A DNA stretch of 9,356 nucleotides from Bacteroidales bacterium (GTDB taxonomy: Bacteria > Bacteroidota > Bacteroidia > Bacteroidales > UBA932): positions 1 to 9,356 of the forward strand of contig JAFZDJ010000113.1 in assembly GCA_017561265.1 (NCBI GenBank), given 5' to 3'. The notes under the pieces are model-generated. The model saw only the letters and a list, made by a program, of their open reading frames with translations, was not told the origin of the DNA and ran no database searches. The translations under genes were made by a program, and so were the position numbers. Shown here in pieces: positions 1,781 to 9,347 of this stretch; the stretch's first letter is position 1, and every line of letters starts with the position of its first letter.

Positions 1781-4700
1781 ACAATTCCTCTACAAAAGCT
1801 GCAACCTGCTCCGCCATGGCAGTCATGCCTGCTACGCTCGGATGGTCCCAGATCTTTTCGATGTCCTCGAGAAGAAGGGCGTGAGCTCCATAATGCTCAC
1901 ATGCTTCAAACTGACCCTTGGTGATCTCAGGCTTGAGCTCTGAATTTATGACGCAGATGATTTCAGCATCCGGAGCTTCTTTCGTAAGATAATCAAGCAT
2001 ATAGCAGCATGCAGGGAGGTATGAAGCAAGGTCTTCTTCAGTCCAGTCGGCATACTTCATCTCTCCGATAGGAGAATTTGCCCATGAATCGTTAGTACCG
2101 CCGCAGATGAGGATAAGATCAGGATCGTCATCCCCTGCCACGATGTTCTTCATACGGGCGATGAAGGACCATGTAGGGCACGGAACGGCATCATAACCTG
2201 TATTGCAGATAGTCGAACCGCTCCAGCTTTCGTTCATGACAAGGTCATATCCGGCAAGAGAGCAGAACTGGCTCCACCATGTATCTTCGACCTTGACAAC
2301 ATCATTCGGACCCTGCGGACGTGATGAATACCACCACGCATTGCCCTCGGGAATATGCCCCAGGAAAGTCGAATATGAATCACCGAGCACAGCCACTGTC
2401 GGCTGAGACTCTACAAGACGAAGCTCATAAAGTCCGCCTACCTGTGTACCTGGATAGCTCTGGAAACGTACGCGGATATATTCCTTGCCCTCGAGCATCG
2501 ATGCCGGTATACGGTATTCCTCAGTCTTGAATACAGACGAACGCCAGCGGCGTGTATTGTCCAATTCAATAAGTTTCTCATCATCGATCATGATATCGAA
2601 TCTGCGTGTTCCCCAGTCGTCGACTCCCCAATACTTCACATAGAGAGAAAGCTCTGTCTTGCCCTGAGTAGCAAGCTCATAGCTGAACCATCCGCCGTTC
2701 TGAGCCTCACGGAAAAACACATTGTTGGTATTGCCTGTAGTCGATCTCTCGAACTGCATCTTATGGTCGGTCTCAGGCTGCTGCTCAGCTGGCTGCACCT
2801 GATCTGTCGTACGTCCTTCGAGTTTCAGCCTGGCAGCCTCCTCCGCTGCAAGATCTGCGAGATAATCCTCATATCCGTCCTTCGAAAGCGCGAGCCAATA
2901 CATCATGTAGCGTGCATCATGGATGGTATAGAAAGGCTGGAGCTCGCCCTCGATAGGGTTGCGCACCTCGATACCTTCGAATGTGAAATGAAGCGGCTTG
3001 CCAGGAACAGGCTTGAGGCAGTCTGCAAGGTCGGCCTCGCCATAAAGAAGCATAGGTGCCTTGTCCACTGGGAGGTATTCTCCACCTGCATACTGTCCGA
3101 AACGGCTGTCGTCGGCGATGATTCCTCGAAGATCCTCCGTTCCGGTCTTCATACCCAGAACGATAGGGCCGTGCATGAATGCGACATACTGAGGGACATT
3201 AGGAAGCTGAACCACGCTTGTATGCATAGGGAAAGCAATCTCAACGACATCACCCTTCTTCCACTTGCGGTCGACAGTAACATATCCGTCAGCACCTGCC
3301 TGGGCAGATACGGTCTTTCCGTTCACCTTCACCTCGAACTCTCCTTCAGCCACCCATGAAGGCTTGCGAACCTTCATTTCAAACTGACCCTTACCTTTCG
3401 CCACGACTATACGTGAAGTCTCACCATATGGGAAAGCCGTCTCCTGACGAAGCACCATTCCGCGGTCCTTCCAATCAAGCTCCGACGCTACGAAAAGATT
3501 GACGTACAATGAATTATCGTCATGAGTATATATGAACTGACCATACTTTCCATGGTTCTCCATACCTGTTCCTACACAGCACCACATTGCTTCGCCCGGA
3601 GCCGAATAGACCCTGTAATGACGTGGGCGCACGCCTGTAAAATATACATATCCTCCATGCTCAGGATGCTGGGTAGAAAGGATATGGTTGAAGAGAGCAC
3701 GCTCGTAATAATCAGAATATGAAGACTTAGGATCGAGACGGAAAAGGCTCTCTGTAAGCTTCAGCATGTTGTAGGTATTGCATGACTCAGGACCGTCATT
3801 GTCATTAAGGAAGTCCACATATGCCTCGACCGGCGGGAAATGCTCCCTGCGGCTGTTTCCACCGAAGGCGAGGCTTCTGTTTCCGGTCACTGTCTCCCAG
3901 AAGAAACGGCCTGCATCAAGGTATTTCTGATCTCCCGAAAGCTCTCCGATACGTTCAAAACCCTGAGCCTTAGGCACCTGTGTATTCGCATGAAGATTAT
4001 CAAGACAATCTATGCCTTCTGACATAGGATCCAGAATCTGCTTGTGCGAGAATCTGCGCGCTGCATCGAGATACTTCTTATCTCCGGACACGGCATATGC
4101 ATCCGCAAGCACCTCGTTCATACCTCCCTGCTCGTTACGCATCATGGCCTGCATCTGCTCATCTGTCAGGCCTGAGGTCAGGCTGATCGCCCAGTCAGAA
4201 AATGCAAGGAACATGTCCTTTGCGTCCTCATAACCGCAGTATACCCATGCATCGCGAAGACCTGCATACATCTTGTGAAGGTTATAGAAAGGGGCCCATG
4301 CTGCGAAGTAGATTCCGAACTCTCCCTTCTTGAATGAAGTCCAGAGCTCATCGCTGCCAGGGAATCCGCCGATGTAATCCACTCCCCACTCCGGATTATT
4401 CTTCGCATGCGCGGCATGCACCTCCTTGAGTTCGCTGAGCATGTACTCCATCCTTTCGCGGCACTCCTTGTCGCCGGTAGCGGCATAGTTCTGAGCCATT
4501 GCAGAAAGGTAATGGCCGGCAATATGGCCGTCCAGACCATCCCAGTTTGGATATGGCTTCGCCTTCATCTCAAGACCCGATTCCTTCCTGTACGGAGCCA
4601 GCATGCGGTCCACATCATACTGCATCAGCACCTCGAGATTGAGGTCACGTGCCGTCTTGAGCGGTCCGTCAAGAAGTTTCACATCTCCCAAAGGGAAGGC

Positions 4701-4795: not shown

Positions 4796-5425
4796 TTATA
4801 TTCCAAATTTCTTCTTGTAATATGACCCTGCTGTGTAGAGAGCCGCAGCTGGGTTGTTTCCTGTGACGCGGTCCTTCGTCACAAGAGTAGTCACATATGC
4901 CTCGGAATAGCGGTAGAAGAGGCTGTCATGGCCTACGCAAAGGCCTATGACCACGTTAAGGTCGGTTCCGGCCTGATTCAGCAGACGTGCCTGAAGGATA
5001 GGATTGCACATGGCCGGACCTATGTTTTCGCATTTTTCAGGTATGCCCATGGATGTCTTGGCTCTGCCCTCGACCTTACATATCACGGCATATGGTTCGA
5101 AGCCGTTGGCACGCAGGATGCGGGCGAAGATGCGTGCCTCGTTGATCAGTCCGATGCAATTGGCAATGCCGATCTTCTTCGCACCGATCTTGCGGGCAAA
5201 CTCCATTATCTCCTGCACACGGGTCCACTGACAGTAACCTTCAAATTCCACCTCTGCGCTCGCAATCATTACCTCGCGGTTCCTGTCTTCATCATAGCGC
5301 TCGAGAGCCCAACTTGCATCTTCATCGGAAAGATTGGTCGTAAGGCAGAAATCAGGGTATGTCCTTGTCTTGAACTTGCAGTTCTGAGTGCCGCAGTCTA
5401 CGCAGCTTAAGGTCTTTTCATCCAT
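4796..5425 (-). CDS. DUF1847 family cysteine-rich, putative metal-binding protein
   Basis: This 209-aa protein has no signal peptide and is therefore predicted to be cytoplasmic. The N-terminus holds a cysteine cluster (C8-x2-C11-x4-C16-x10-C27). Further cysteines fall at 65, 90, 116, 132, 140 and 163, several in conserved-looking blocks: W-T-R-V-Q-E-I-M-E-F-A, GIANCIGL (C90), AMCNPILQA (C140) and GLCVGHDSLF (C163, H166). This pattern fits the DUF1847 family, for which metal binding has been suggested and no reaction established. The block order (KKIGIANCIGL, then CNPILQARLLN, then NVVIGLCVGHD) suggests a Rossmann-like alpha/beta fold carrying metal or Fe-S sites; this is inference. The protein precedes the GH127/146 fusion by 11 bp on the same strand, so the two are probably co-transcribed. 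A perfect TATATTTG box lies 20-27 bp upstream of ATG 5425. Confidence 0.8.
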   Translation of the reverse strand: MDEKTLSCVDCGTQNCKFKTRTYPDFCLTTNLSDEDASWALERYDEDRNREVMIASAEVEFEGYCQWTRVQEIMEFARKIGAKKIGIANCIGLINEARIFARILRANGFEPYAVICKVEGRAKTSMGIPEKCENIGPAMCNPILQARLLNQAGTDLNVVIGLCVGHDSLFYRYSEAYVTTLVTKDRVTGNNPAAALYTAGSYYKKKFGI

Positions 5426-5444
5426 AAATCATGTTTATCAGATA

Positions 5445-5452
5445 CAAATATA
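5445..5452 (-). promoter_or_regulatory. Candidate -7 box for the DUF1847-GH127/146 operon
   Basis: The minus strand reads TATATTTG, a perfect TAnnTTTG match. It would start transcription near 5438, only about 13 nt before ATG 5425. A -33 TTTG is not evident. Confidence 0.5.
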
Positions 5453-5474
5453 CCGTTATTCGGGAAATATTCCT

Positions 5475-5482
5475 TATTTTTG
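5475..5482 (+). promoter_or_regulatory. Candidate -7 box for the GH31 gene
   Basis: The plus strand reads TATTTTTG, a perfect TAnnTTTG match, 22 bp from the divergent box at 5445-5452. The predicted start near 5488 gives a leader of about 11-17 nt. This box also argues that translation starts at 5499 or 5505, not at an upstream in-frame ATG (5388). Confidence 0.5.
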
Positions 5483-5498
5483 GAAAAACATAAAACTT

Positions 5499-8063
5499 AT
5501 GATTATGAAAAGATTTTTTCTGACCGCAGTTGCTCTGATTGTCGGATGTGTCTTCATGACAGCATCGGCTCAGGATCATTCGATCCGCTTCCAGAACGGA
5601 ACCCTGACAGTCACTCCGCTGCAGGATAATGCCGTACGCATCAGATACATAGAGGGAGAAACTGCAGAACTTCCTGAATTGATCTATGTGGAAAACGACG
5701 ATAAGGTATCGTGCAAGAAATCCTCAAAGGGAGAGGTCACTACTCTCAAGCTCAAAGGGTTGATCTTGACTGCAGACAACGGAAGCGGCCGCATCGAAGT
5801 CGCTGACAGCAAAGGCGTGAAGGTATTCTCGGCTCTTGCCCATGAACTTGAAGCCAGCACCATCCAGGGTGAAGCGACAAGAGAAGCAAAACTCATAATC
5901 AATTCACCAGCAGATGAATACATCTATGGACTAGGACAGTTCCAGGACGGATACCTAAACGTAAAGGACCTCACCAGAAGGCTTACACAGGTCAACACAC
6001 AGATATCTGTTCCTTTCATTCTTTCCAGCAAGGGCTATGGCCTTCTCTGGAACAATTACGGCCTTACAGACTTCAATCCTGCCGAAAGCAGCGTGAAGAT
6101 GGAAAGGGCTCAGGCTAAAGGAGAGGAAGTGACCCTCAATGTAACCTCTACAGAAGGAAACAGAAGGGAGACAAGACGTACACATGATTTCAAGGCTACC
6201 GTCGACATACCTGAAGACGGTACATATGCGGTTCTCCTGGACGTGGGACAGAAGATGGCCCGCAGACATGATCTGAGCATCGACGGCAAGAATGTAATCC
6301 ATCTCATAAATTCATGGCTTCCTCCTACAACATCAGTCATCGTAGACCTCAAGGCAGGAAAGCACGAGCTTACTGCAGAGCTTGAAAGAGGAGACAGCCC
6401 TACTATATACTTCAGAAAGACGGATGACAGGACTGTATTCAGATCTCCTGTCGCAGAATGTGTCGACTACACTGTCTTCACTGGCAATGCAGACGATATA
6501 ATCGCCTCATACAGAGCTGTCAGCGGAGAAGTGCCTATGCTCCCTGACTGGGCATTCGGATATATCCATTGCAGGGAAAGATTCCATTCTCAGGAAGAAC
6601 TTGTCAACACTGCGAAAAGGTTCCGTGAAGAACAGATTCCCCTCGACCTGATCGTCCAGGACTGGCAGTACTGGGGAAAATACGGATGGAACGCGATGCG
6701 TTTCGACGAAGAGCATTATCCGGATCCGGCACAGATGGTCAAGGATCTTCACGACATGGATATGAAGCTAATGATCTCCGTATGGTCTAAGATCGATCCG
6801 TCTTCCGAGGTAGGAAAGGCAGCTCAGGAAAAGGGACTTTTCATTCCGGAGACCACATGGATCGACTTCTTCGACAAGGATGCTTCCACATTCTATTGGA
6901 ACAATTTCCGCGACAGACTTCTCAAGCCATACGGCATCGACGCATGGTGGCAGGATGCTACAGAGCCAGAGAACGACGACCTCGAAGGCCGCAGGATCAT
7001 GAAGGGAAGCCAGCCGGGAGAACGTTATAGAAATGTCTACCCGCTCAAGGTGACTGAAACAATCTATGAAGGTCTGAAGAAGGACGATTCGGAAAGAAGA
7101 CCTATGATTTTCACTAGAAGCGGATTCTCAGGAGCTCAGAGATACGGCGCGGTACTTTGGTCAGGTGACGTCGGAAACGACTGGCAGACACTGCGTTATC
7201 AGGTAGCTGCAGGTCTCGGGTTCGTTTCCACAGGACTTCCTTGGTGGACATACGACGCAGGCGGATTCTTCCGTCCGTACGACCAGTACAGGAATCAGGA
7301 CTATATCGAGCGCATGATCAGATGGATACAGGTGGGAACATTCCTTCCTCTTATGCGTGTCCACGGATACATGAGCAACACAGAGCCATGGGAATATGGC
7401 CCTGAAGCGACAAGGATAATCAAGAAGCAGATCGAGCTGCGCTACAAGCTTCTTCCATACATATATTCGGAAGCTGCGAAGGTGACATACGAAGGATCGA
7501 CTCTGATGAGACCGCTTGTCTTCGATTTCGCCTCTGACGAGGAAGCCTTGAAGCAGGATAACGAATATATGTTCGGTCAGTCACTGCTCGTATGTCCTGT
7601 GACTGAAGGTGGCGTTTCTCAGTGGCCCGTTTACCTTCCTGAGAATGAAGGAGGATGGTATGACTTCCGCAACGGAAAGAAATATGAAGGAGGAAAATAT
7701 GCCGACGTATCTGTCGACATCGAGTCCATCCCTGTATTCGTGAAAGCAGGATCCATCATCCCTACAGGCCCTGTAAAGCAGTCTGTGGCCGAAAAAAGCG
7801 AAGAGCCGATAGCCCTGAACATCTATCCGGGAGCAGATGCAAGTTTCCGTCTCTATGAGGACGAAGGCGACAACATGAATTATCAGGACGGTCAAAGCAC
7901 CACCATCGACATCAGCTGGGACGATTCTTCACGCAAGCTCACAATCGAAAAGAGAATCGGCAGCTTCGAGGGCATGCAGGAAGTCCGTACATTCAAGATA
8001 ACCGTCGCAGGTACAGAAAAGACCATACGCTACGACGGCCGAAAGGTTGCGGTAAAGTTCTGA
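5499..8063 (+). CDS. Secreted GH31 glycosidase, probable alpha-xylosidase, with PA14-like insert
   Basis: The protein is 854 aa from ATG 5499; ATG 5505 is an equally good start. The frame extends upstream to an ATG at 5388, but that would place 37 residues before the signal peptide MKRFFLTAVALIVG...ASAQ, which is cleaved near residue 24. An N-terminal GH31 beta-sandwich is interrupted at about residues 218-308 by a PA14-like insert (PEDGTYAVLLDVGQ..., L-K-A-G-K-H-E-L), as in Bacteroides and Cellvibrio xyloglucan alpha-xylosidases. The (beta/alpha)8 domain begins near LPDWAFGYIHCRERF. QDWQYWG is typical of the alpha-xylosidase-like group. WWQDATEPE carries the nucleophile D486, and WSGDVGNDW carries the acid/base D557. 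The C-terminal beta domains are complete to VAVKF. The likely role is release of alpha-xylosyl units from xyloglucan fragments in the periplasm; alpha-glucosidase or alpha-galactosidase activity cannot be excluded. It is divergent from the DUF1847 gene. Confidence 0.9.
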   Translation: MIMKRFFLTAVALIVGCVFMTASAQDHSIRFQNGTLTVTPLQDNAVRIRYIEGETAELPELIYVENDDKVSCKKSSKGEVTTLKLKGLILTADNGSGRIEVADSKGVKVFSALAHELEASTIQGEATREAKLIINSPADEYIYGLGQFQDGYLNVKDLTRRLTQVNTQISVPFILSSKGYGLLWNNYGLTDFNPAESSVKMERAQAKGEEVTLNVTSTEGNRRETRRTHDFKATVDIPEDGTYAVLLDVGQKMARRHDLSIDGKNVIHLINSWLPPTTSVIVDLKAGKHELTAELERGDSPTIYFRKTDDRTVFRSPVAECVDYTVFTGNADDIIASYRAVSGEVPMLPDWAFGYIHCRERFHSQEELVNTAKRFREEQIPLDLIVQDWQYWGKYGWNAMRFDEEHYPDPAQMVKDLHDMDMKLMISVWSKIDPSSEVGKAAQEKGLFIPETTWIDFFDKDASTFYWNNFRDRLLKPYGIDAWWQDATEPENDDLEGRRIMKGSQPGERYRNVYPLKVTETIYEGLKKDDSERRPMIFTRSGFSGAQRYGAVLWSGDVGNDWQTLRYQVAAGLGFVSTGLPWWTYDAGGFFRPYDQYRNQDYIERMIRWIQVGTFLPLMRVHGYMSNTEPWEYGPEATRIIKKQIELRYKLLPYIYSEAAKVTYEGSTLMRPLVFDFASDEEALKQDNEYMFGQSLLVCPVTEGGVSQWPVYLPENEGGWYDFRNGKKYEGGKYADVSVDIESIPVFVKAGSIIPTGPVKQSVAEKSEEPIALNIYPGADASFRLYEDEGDNMNYQDGQSTTIDISWDDSSRKLTIEKRIGSFEGMQEVRTFKITVAGTEKTIRYDGRKVAVKF

Positions 8064-8123
8064 CCTCCCGATACTTCAGACCGGCAGTGTTGAGGCTCCA
8101 GGCGCACTTCGTCGGATCCTCAA

Positions 8124-8143
8124 ATGAATCTGTTGGGATTCAT
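8124..8143. repeat. Stem-loop 1 (7-bp stem)
   Basis: ATGAATC (8124-8130) and GATTCAT (8137-8143) flank a 6-nt loop. A weak 6-bp pair, TTGAGG 8090-8095 with CCTCAA 8118-8123, directly precedes it. It lies 60 bp after the GH31 stop codon and could help end its transcript, although no U-tract follows. Confidence 0.5.
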
Positions 8144-8166
8144 AATCACCGTATTGAGACTCCTGA

Positions 8167-8204
8167 TGTGCCTTGACTGTATGAAAACTTGCAGTCAAGG
8201 CACA
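8167..8204. repeat. Stem-loop 2 (13-bp perfect stem, 38 nt)
   Basis: The arms TGTGCCTTGACTG (8167-8179) and CAGTCAAGGCACA (8192-8204) enclose a 12-nt loop. The sequence after it is only moderately T-rich (cctacatttt). The same CTTGACTG-type stem recurs in the element at 8252-8289. Confidence 0.8.
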
Positions 8205-8251
8205 CCTACATTTTGCAACTGCCTACATATCTGCAACTTACACAAAGCCCC

Positions 8252-8289
8252 TGTTCCCTGACTGCATATAATCCGACAGTCAAGGAACA
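8252..8289. repeat. Stem-loop 3 (13-bp stem, one mismatch, 38 nt; related to stem-loop 2)
   Basis: The arms TGTTCCCTGACTG (8252-8264) and CAGTCAAGGAACA (8277-8289) enclose a 12-nt loop. Total length and loop length equal those of 8167-8204, and CAGTCAAGG is shared exactly, but the loops differ. The single C/A mismatch on the plus strand would be a G-U pair in minus-strand RNA. Confidence 0.8.
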
Positions 8290-8367
8290 CTATCACTGTA
8301 AATAATTTCTGTTCATTAAGTATATATCCTATACAAAAGACTAACTCGCTCTCCTTAAGGCAGTTAC

Positions 8368-8406
8368 GCTTGTTGGGGTAGGTAATTTTCACCTATCCCA
8401 ATAAGC
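8368..8406. repeat. Stem-loop 4 (16-bp stem with two wobbles)
   Basis: GCTTGTTGGGGTAGGT (8368-8383) pairs with ACCTATCCCAATAAGC (8391-8406) around a 7-nt loop. The two non-Watson-Crick positions are G-U pairs in plus-strand RNA. No U-tract follows; the next bases are ataaaacact. Confidence 0.8.
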
Positions 8407-8485
8407 ATAAAACACTAGCCTCCAAACACTTAGGTATACGGGATCATTCTAAGCCTAAAAATGTACATGGTTTCATGCCAGCACC

Positions 8486-8513
8486 GCTGCCGGAATATAC
8501 GATTTCCGGCAGC
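8486..8513. repeat. Stem-loop 5 (10-bp perfect stem; left copy of an inverted element)
   Basis: GCTGCCGGAA (8486-8495) and TTCCGGCAGC (8504-8513) enclose an 8-nt loop. Bases 8489-8510 match the reverse complement of 8712-8733 at 20 of 22 positions, loop included, so this is one of two inverted copies. Confidence 0.8.
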
Positions 8514-8524
8514 TACAGCTCGGA

Positions 8525-8563
8525 TCGGCACGGAGAGCTCATCCGTTGAGCTCTCCGTGCCGA
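8525..8563. repeat. Stem-loop 6 (17-bp perfect stem, 5-nt loop)
   Basis: TCGGCACGGAGAGCTCA (8525-8541) pairs perfectly with TGAGCTCTCCGTGCCGA (8547-8563). The pairing extends across a small internal loop through CAGCT 8516-8520 and AGCTG 8566-8570. This is the strongest simple hairpin in the region, with no U-tract on either side. Confidence 0.85.
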
Positions 8564-8567
8564 CCAG

Positions 8568-8656
8568 CTGTTGCCGTGTCTGTACAGAAAGTACTGTCAA
8601 CCATCAGGATTCTGCACTGAAATCGTTTCAGACAGTACTAAAACATAAGGCAACAG
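8568..8656. repeat. Nested stem-loop 7 (three stacked stems)
   Basis: There are three concentric pairings: CTGTTGCC 8568-8575 with GGCAACAG 8649-8656, AGTACTGTC 8590-8598 with GACAGTACT 8631-8639, and an inner CTGAAA 8617-8622 / TTTCAG 8626-8631 that shares one base with the middle stem. The concentric order suggests one extended imperfect hairpin. Confidence 0.7.
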
Positions 8657-8658
8657 TC

Positions 8659-8700
8659 AAGCAATACGGACGGCTCGATGAAAGGCCGTCCATATCGCTT
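8659..8700. repeat. Stem-loop 8 (16-nt arms, two mismatches)
   Basis: AAGCAATACGGACGGC (8659-8674) faces GCCGTCCATATCGCTT (8685-8700) around a 10-nt loop. The inner seven pairs are perfect. The two mismatches would be G-U wobbles in minus-strand RNA. It begins two bases after the preceding nested hairpin. Confidence 0.75.
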
Positions 8701-8709
8701 AATCTGTAG

Positions 8710-8735
8710 TCGCCGGAGAGCGTATATTCCGGCGA
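8710..8735. repeat. Stem-loop 9 (8-bp perfect stem; right, inverted copy)
   Basis: TCGCCGGA (8710-8717) pairs with TCCGGCGA (8728-8735) around a 10-nt loop. On the opposite strand its core is nearly identical to the hairpin at 8489-8510. GCCGGAATATACG at 8489-8501 and CGTATATTCCGGC at 8721-8733 can also pair with each other over 13 perfect bases. Confidence 0.8.
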
Positions 8736-8773
8736 TGGCGCTCCCTCGAGCCAAAGCTCTGCCCGATAAAGCA

Positions 8774-8849
8774 CTGACAATCAACAGAATACGGAAACCG
8801 CGTGCCGCCATTGGGGAGCACGCGGTTTCCGTAAGTCGCTGATTATCAG
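8774..8849. repeat. Stem-loop 10 (16-bp perfect stem plus 10-bp outer stem, 76 nt)
   Basis: TACGGAAACCGCGTGC (8790-8805) pairs perfectly with GCACGCGGTTTCCGTA (8818-8833). Beyond a symmetrical 6+6-nt internal loop, CTGACAATCA (8774-8783) pairs with TGATTATCAG (8840-8849) with one mismatch. It lies about 110 bp downstream of the DUF1232 gene on that gene's transcript but has no U-tract. Confidence 0.85.
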
Positions 8850-8864
8850 GAAGGTAATGGGCAG

Positions 8865-8924
8865 GATTCAGACCAGGACATAGACCAGGATATAGGTCAG
8901 AATCTAGTCCCGTATATAGACCAT
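8865..8924. repeat. Five degenerate 12-nt tandem repeats
   Basis: Consecutive 12-mers GATTCAGACCAG, GACATAGACCAG, GATATAGGTCAG, AATCTAGTCCCG and TATATAGACCAT share the consensus GATATAGACCAG. The first three are closest and the fourth is the most diverged. The frame is open on the plus strand after TAA 8832-8834 but has no start codon, so coding is unlikely. The array begins 15 bp after the last hairpin. Confidence 0.7.
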
Positions 8925-8957
8925 GAATGCGGGGCTGAATGATCGGTTACATTGGAA

Positions 8958-9347
8958 CTATTCTCCTAACTGATCATCCGCAGCGGCCTGGTCGAAGTCC
9001 CCGAACCATTCGCGGGTCTTGGCGGCGGCTTGGGCCTTGATCTCGGGGGTGATGTTCTTCCATACTGTGTGGAGGGCCCAGATGACGGCGGTGAGGTCGT
9101 CCGTATAGCCGGCCAGCGGGATGAAGTCCGGAAGGATGTCCAATGGAAGAAGGAAATATCCTAGGGCACCGTAGATCTTTGACTTGTCTGCCTTCGAGAC
9201 GGTCTTGCTGCGGAGCACATAGTAGAGCAGAAGCACGGCATAGACCAGTTTCGAACCGGCCTTGCGGGCTACTTTCGGTAGTCTGGAGCCGAACTTGCTT
9301 TCGTCGTAATGCTCCTGATATTTCTCTATGTCTTTCGGTGGTTTCAT
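8958..9347 (-). CDS. YkvA-family DUF1232 membrane protein
   Basis: This 129-aa protein carries the DUF1232 signature GALGYFLLPLDILPDFIPLA, followed by GYTDDL (residues 60-85), the hallmark of the YkvA family. A hydrophobic stretch at 34-45 (LVYAVLLLYYVL) and the signature segment are probably membrane-embedded; no cleavable signal peptide is seen. The N-terminus is charged (MKPPKDIEKYQEHYDESKFG), and the C-terminal tail is acidic and alanine-rich. The family is widespread and its function unknown. Length is typical for the family, so the gene appears complete, with ATG at 9347 only nine bases from the window edge. Its promoter is outside the window. It converges with the GH31 gene across the hairpin-rich spacer. 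The family call is secure; its job is not known. Confidence 0.9.
   Translation of the reverse strand: MKPPKDIEKYQEHYDESKFGSRLPKVARKAGSKLVYAVLLLYYVLRSKTVSKADKSKIYGALGYFLLPLDILPDFIPLAGYTDDLTAVIWALHTVWKNITPEIKAQAAAKTREWFGDFDQAAADDQLGE

Follow-up and report, generated by a model that had tools for sequence, protein, structure and literature searches.

The dense array of stem-loops in a convergent intergenic spacer of a Bacteroidales bacterium is, with a probability of about 80%, a REP/BIME-like cluster of RAYT-type palindromes lodged at a permissive gene junction. At least three families make it up, namely two inverted copies of family A, one copy of family B and one pair of family C palindromes. 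Its kind is known from REPs, REPtrons and TIRtrons, and the families themselves appear new. This agrees with one option of the first-pass annotation, a cluster of palindromic elements, which is borne out by the dispersed families, the covariation in A and B and the empty junction in three relatives.

The window is the whole stretch of DNA that was analyzed, 9,356 nt in length. The GH31 gene and the DUF1232 gene face each other across the spacer with the array, and the features are as follows.

5388..8063, + strand: GH31 glycoside hydrolase gene, the left neighbor; longest ORF, likely start ATG at 5505 (Pfam PF01055, E 8.4e-90)
8064..8957: spacer of 894 nt, from the GH31 stop codon to the DUF1232 stop codon, containing the array
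8114..8163: weak hairpin around 8124–8143, from the fold; BLAST of the whole spacer gave no family for it
8167..8204: family C palindrome 1, a 13-bp perfect stem with a 12-nt loop, paired with palindrome 2
8252..8290: family C palindrome 2, 74% identical to palindrome 1, 85 nt from it start to start
8368..8406: hairpin D, a 16-bp stem including one G-T pair, from the fold
8434..8917: outer imperfect inverted repeat (8434–8457 and 8893–8917) enclosing A-A-B, in the whole-spacer fold only; the fold of 8426–8957 alone pairs both arms differently
8477..8580, − strand: family A copy 1, a three-way junction, with a REP-like hairpin (8486–8513), CTAC at 8513–8516 (GTAG on the − strand) and a variable hairpin (8522–8565)
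8581..8643: linker inside the tail-to-tail A dimer, with a hairpin (8590–8598/8631–8639) from the fold
8644..8745, + strand: family A copy 2, with a variable hairpin (8659–8700), GTAG at 8706–8709 and a REP-like hairpin (8710–8735)
8755..8866, + strand: family B, a 112-nt imperfect palindrome with a core stem (8790–8805/8818–8833) and a conserved loop
8958..9347, − strand: DUF1232 protein gene, the convergent right neighbor (Pfam PF06803, E 2.6e-13)

The two A copies score 83.8 and 80.4 bits with the R1 model (alignment A1) and the B copy 104.5 bits with the R2 model (alignment A2), but these scores and the percentages of paired bases are not independent evidence, as both models were trained on sets that include the window copies and the structures derive from the same alignments. 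At the DUF1232 end of the spacer, degenerate 12-nt tandem repeats (family D1) occupy 8862–8900. The nearest database records are metagenome bins, and four of the first five are named for ruminant guts (roe deer, goat, water buffalo and yak).

About ten consecutive stem-loops had been claimed for 8124–8849, and folding or a perfect-hairpin scan recovers them in place. The confirmed stems are at 8124–8143, 8167–8204, 8252–8289, 8368–8406, 8486–8513, 8525–8563, 8567–8657 (with 8590–8639 nested), 8659–8700 and 8790–8833, the last within 8774–8849. The 8-bp hairpin at 8710–8735 was read off the sequence and is consistent with an 8-bp stem of the scan, while the minimum-energy fold instead joins the arms of this hairpin to those of 8486–8513 over long range.

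The perfect stems in 8124–8849 reach 17, 16, 13, 10 and 8 bp (loops of 3–20 nt), against a mean of 0.03 stems of at least 9 bp and a longest stem of 11 bp in 300 dinucleotide shuffles. In the rest of the window, the scan listed no perfect hairpin of at least 9 bp. Folding of the 894-nt spacer gives −371.9 kcal/mol (z −23.8) on the + strand and −392.6 kcal/mol (z −14.3) on the − strand, and the 300-nt windows at 8401 and 8551 have z of −9.6 and −6.7 (+) and −9.6 and −10.1 (−), with most coding windows around 0. All these z values are rough since they come from only 20 shuffles per strand for the spacer and 25 for each 300-nt window.

The stem-loops had also been taken as mostly unrelated in sequence, which fails in two places. 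The segments 8480–8518 and 8704–8742 are inverted copies, 79% complementary over 39 nt, and 8167–8205 is related to 8252–8290 with 74% identity. The remark that most lack a U-tract is broadly right, the array having one terminator-like site (8167–8204, + strand). Two such sites were found in the whole of 7950–9050, compared with 0.8 (sd 0.9) in shuffles.

A family A element measures about 100 nt and consists of an outer helix, a hairpin of variable sequence, the GTAG tag and a hairpin with a conserved loop. The two copies in the window are inverted with their GTAG ends facing across the 63-nt linker. Seven partial copies among 22 hits (L087, L088, L090, L091, L094, L095 and L105) were left out of alignment A1, and in its 17 copies the tag is GTAG in 14 and TTAG in three. 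Part of the GTAG is base-paired and co-varies.

Covariation and recurrence elsewhere had been proposed as checks; covariation was found in families A and B, and the families recur in related genomes. In the 17 A copies, 58 cells are changed on both sides of a pair versus 22 in shuffles (none of 500 reaches it), and 13 pairs show two-sided change versus 9.2 (reached by 4 of 500). Slid controls give 3–14 cells. In pair types, A does not exceed the shuffles, 464 of 500 reaching its number.

Outside the window's own genome, which is excluded from all family counts, A is present in 24 of 61 related genomes with up to 9 matches in each. Its genomic contexts show no clear preference, with eight convergent, seven tandem and two divergent sites and eight at edges among 25 of the 30 A loci examined. 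In L085, A lies directly past the stop codon of an IS256_Zn_var transposase gene (739–1796). A gene fragment of this type is near A in L106 (1629–1772), and L114 has a distant relative. Five A matches begin at base 1 of a contig.

Family B is far more abundant. It is found in 43 of the 61 genomes, with tens of copies in several and up to at least 62 matches per genome, although the loci are roughly half the matches, since a palindrome matches on both strands at most sites. The nearest relatives G001, G002 and G005 have 62, 43 and 114 matches, respectively. Alignment A2 contains 22 B hits minus a duplicate (L084) and two weak L072 hits, and among the 20 copies counted for covariation, 39 cells are changed on both sides versus 17 in shuffles (0 of 500 reach it) and 8–21 in slid controls. 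The stricter measures are not above the shuffles, two-sided pairs being reached by 98 and pair types by 148 of 500. GTAG was not seen as a conserved tag in B or C.

B prefers convergent gene ends. Of 47 copies, 32 are between convergent and 15 between tandem genes with none at divergent sites, and many fill the stop-to-stop gap within 15 nt. Ordinary neighboring ORF pairs (n = 53, from 14 loci) are 9 convergent, 32 tandem and 12 divergent, differing from B with p 2e-7. The 47 copies are 46 high-scoring sites in three chosen genomes, not a random draw, plus the window, and the ORFs for the B, A and ordinary-pair contexts were called mechanically. A preference for convergent and tandem sites is also reported for classical REPs in the consulted part of PMC3733652.

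Family C is rare. Its two palindromes keep a spacing of 85 nt in the window, where they start at 8171 and 8256, and in L266 and L268, and in L267 a diverged partner aligns at the same offset. The exact core pattern occurs in only one of 151 genomes, at three places in G033, and the reversed control pattern in none. Neither A nor B was found at the three G033 loci. The pattern of hairpin D matched 0 of the 151 genomes and gave no family. BLAST of the spacer as a whole gave matches in at least 21 of these 151 genomes of one genus-level group, with the best three candidates per genome scored, and short matches in six of nine genomes reached via their DUF1232 loci.

The junction itself is nearly empty elsewhere. 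DUF1232 relatives are present in 67 of the 151 genomes, and 46 DUF1232 loci were searched, comprising 16 of the 68 relatives found first and 30 more with flanks of up to 1.5 kb. The GH31 and DUF1232 pair is shared by just three of them (L001, L002 and L005), where the two stop codons, read directly from sequence, are 2, 2 and 3 nt apart. Therefore, about 890 nt separate the two states, either by gain in the lineage of the window or by loss in that of the relatives, and the filled and empty orthologous sites are compatible with gain or with precise loss. The genomes with the near-empty junction (G001, G002 and G005) yet have A and B elsewhere.

Similar differences are seen at other sites. L299, a 9.1-kb stretch of G001, carries four B copies, one type I RAYT gene and one A. 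The flanks of its B at 4525–4638 are separated by 26 nt in G002 and by 6 nt in G005. A larger unit of B (6379–6492), RAYT (6498–7445), A (7596–7696) and B (7707–7820) is likewise missing from G002, where its flanks are 6 nt apart. At 1520–1631, B stands alone in G001, and the corresponding site of G005 contains three B copies plus a RAYT gene, with no A found among them. These differences are insertions or clean losses at gene ends, and no target duplication was identified.

The RAYT genes fall into two types. Four type I proteins (L069, L075, L078 and L079) were compared with protein families: three pass the Pfam Y1_Tnp cut-off, and all four match NCBIfam NF047646, the REP-associated tyrosine transposase, at E values of 6.3e-9 to 1.6e-11 that are under its 80-bit cut-off. 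The predicted structure (pLDDT 92.7) has as its best PDB match 4er8, a RAYT bound to a REP hairpin (E 7.4e-5, probability 1.00, 16% identity), and so points to an HUH and Y1 fold related to the E. coli RAYT. A sequence search of the PDB with the RAYT profiles gave no hit.

Type II is weaker by the same measures, with L094 passing the Pfam cut-off but L081 and L073 not, and NF047646 matched by L094 but not by L081. These RAYT-like proteins are encoded at 528–1391 in L081, 633–1481 in L094 and 1–813 in L073, and have NHVH or NHAH motifs, with YIDRN in L081. Profile matches at E ≤ 1e-10 are found in 42 of 61 genomes for type I and in 52 of 61 for type II, which reaches 11 per genome, although these counts are upper bounds for each type because the two profiles cross-match weakly.

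B is specifically linked to one RAYT type, type I. Among 20 type I loci, 18 have B in the flanks that were retrieved, 14 of them on both sides and a few at a distance of 650–900 nt, versus none of 10 type II loci (Fisher p 2e-6); one of the 20, L166, contains B training copies. Another 20 type I loci, taken with shorter flanks and sharing three genes with the first set, have B in 14 cases and lack it in six. Family A is less clear. A RAYT gene is near A in five of 30 A loci, one of type I and four of type II, and A is present at three of 30 RAYT loci, so that its agent is uncertain.

Within genomes, type I gene pairs aligning over at least 300 nt were found in G052 only, as four pairs of 66–71% identity, and such diverged pairs give no sign of a recent burst of transposition. 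Several divergent type I genes per genome, many flanked by B-like palindromes, are also seen in G052, G043, G037, G030 and G046 (L323–L342). In G074, G035 and G001 (L078, L079 and L299 6355–7840), but not in G002, a type I RAYT lies behind the same gene, whose protein ends in FI[AD]GQTL. This shared position is either a long-kept or a preferred site.

Family A has much in common with the GTAG REPs and BIMEs of E. coli and Pseudomonas, as far as PMC3733652 was consulted. Its second hairpin is a palindrome of 20–40 nt with GTAG directly at the foot, it is dispersed, some of its copies adjoin RAYT genes, and the window's inverted copies with their linker form a tail-to-tail pair, as two inverse REPs do in a BIME or REPIN. 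However, A is about 100 nt long because a second, variable hairpin and an outer helix turn it into a three-way junction, and its GTAG is partly paired and co-varying. As for the many dispersed copies per genome expected of REPs, A reaches up to 9 matches, which is low for REPs, and B at least 62 in one genome, mostly as two matches per locus.

The B and type I system fits the picture of the TIRtrons or TIRYTs, in which long inverted repeats unrelated to GTAG REPs, featuring a GGGGWSAS motif, flank the RAYT gene (PMC3733652, in part). Here too the RAYT gene is often between dispersed long inverted repeats, and B is self-complementary, lacks GTAG and sometimes has neighboring copies. It differs in its host order, the Bacteroidales, in the 112-nt palindrome and in reaching tens of copies in some genomes. 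The option of a recombination- or replication-associated DNA structure is right in part, in the sense that B is the palindrome on the flanks of a family of HUH/Y1 RAYT genes.

Two TnpA-Y1 subclasses, 2.4 and 2.6 (Bertels groups 4 and 5), are reported from Bacteroidetes in the consulted portion of PMC6006769. Subclass 2.4 has NH[IFV]H, WQ, YIxNNP and GT[AG]G REPs, and 2.6 has NH[LIV]H, WQ and YIH[QN]NP. As an HUH/Y1 protein of Bacteroidetes with YxxNNP in all four members, close to YIxNNP, type I resembles 2.4, but NHFH is found in only two of the four (DHIH or DHTH in the others), WQ is absent and B is without GTAG. It differs from 2.6 in the Y motif and in WQ. Hence we do not file type I under 2.4 or 2.6, as the WQ motif is missing in this comparison by motifs, made without a tree of reference members. 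We found no description of families A, B or C in Bacteroidales in the openly licensed literature, including PMC6006769, PMC3733652, PMC12306157, PMC8266576 and PMC5771137 as far as these were consulted.

Among the other explanations, it is unlikely that the block is the remnant of a single B-RAYT-A-B unit that lost its transposase gene by internal deletion. In its favor, the RAYT gene of L079 and L075 is enclosed by inverted B copies and accompanied by A on one side, the window carries two A copies with B next to them, and a site with only B in G001 is occupied in G005 by B copies plus a RAYT gene. Yet tblastn with 26 RAYT alignment rows found no remnant of the gene in the spacer (best E 0.39), and the window has one B rather than two and two A copies. 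C, moreover, is absent from the RAYT units looked at, and its three G033 loci are without A and B.

It is rather improbable that the block is kept for an RNA function, as a bidirectional terminator and 3′-end stabilizer of the GH31 and DUF1232 mRNAs. Such a role would suit the position of B, mainly between convergent genes and often within 15 nt of the stop codons, the terminator-like hairpin at 8167–8204 and the REPs that PMC3733652, in the part consulted, places downstream of genes as possible RNA elements. But three relatives do without the block at this junction, the two terminator-like sites of 7950–9050, one of them in the array, compare with a mean of 0.8 for the shuffles, and the families present vary between genomes.

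A single large structured non-coding RNA, the other option of the first-pass annotation, is very improbable and is not borne out as one unit. The very low folding energy and the long-range nested fold would fit it, but both strands are structured and A, B and C occur separately elsewhere and are absent from this junction in three relatives. No tRNA or tmRNA was found in the window, the spacer matched no phage record, and the ORFs of 65 and 82 aa within the array match no Pfam family. Rfam gave no match in the window at the curated cut-off, and 8040–8980 searched at E up to 1 gave sub-threshold matches only, none credible. No promoter-like site was found in 7950–9050, though the E. coli-type consensus used is a poor test here.

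Chance or neutral palindromes are scarcely believable, because stems of 17, 16 and 13 bp exceed the maximum of 11 bp in 300 shuffles, the families recur and A and B covary, even if hairpin D and the weak hairpin at 8114–8163 have no relatives found.

In the preferred reading of a REP-like cluster, the A, B and C elements would have reached the junction separately or together. When a strand becomes single during replication or transcription, the palindromes may fold into hairpins, and a Y1/HUH transposase would recognize and cut these hairpins and rejoin them elsewhere, as inferred from known RAYT biochemistry. The cutting and rejoining of hairpins has been tested in vitro with the E. coli, Stenotrophomonas and Marinomonas proteins, and the same source reports no evidence for tnpA-REP mobility (PMC8266576, in part). 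Type I RAYTs would be the movers of B, and A could be moved by a RAYT of type I or II. Convergent stop-codon junctions would be favored because insertion there disrupts no gene and no promoter, and an influence on termination or on the ends of mRNAs, if any, would be secondary.

More tentatively, and with much less confidence than the reading above, a unit of about 1.5 kb, B-RAYT-A-B, may move as a whole between convergent gene ends in this group of Bacteroidales from ruminant guts, the RAYT gene itself being mobile. It may seed non-autonomous B and A copies that pile up into compound arrays, together with fixed-spacing C palindromes of another system.

Most knowledge of REPs and RAYTs comes from Proteobacteria, and the way in which the palindromes spread has yet to be solved. 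Here, a clade of many sequenced species makes the RAYT types, flanking palindromes, copy numbers and filled or empty sites directly comparable. The three-way-junction A with its covarying second hairpin is a new shape that such a transposase may recognize. A warning also follows, that a very strong, conserved-looking structure with intergenic covariation need not mean a functional RNA.

The window holds a second repeat, family E, at 1657–1790 within and around the convergent spacer 1657–1778 between a GDSL and a GH127 gene. Its conserved core of about 60 nt caps a 22-bp helix that has A/T tracts, and Rfam gave no credible match for five copies. In 20 further copies the outer helix remains paired although most differ in its sequence, which a few copies share; its median length in the 21 copies is 20 bp. 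It matches seven of eight chosen related genomes with up to 24 matches each, and the window's copy has T-rich ends like a two-way terminator. Family E could be a terminator whose tip is conserved, or else an element that inserts into the loops of terminators.
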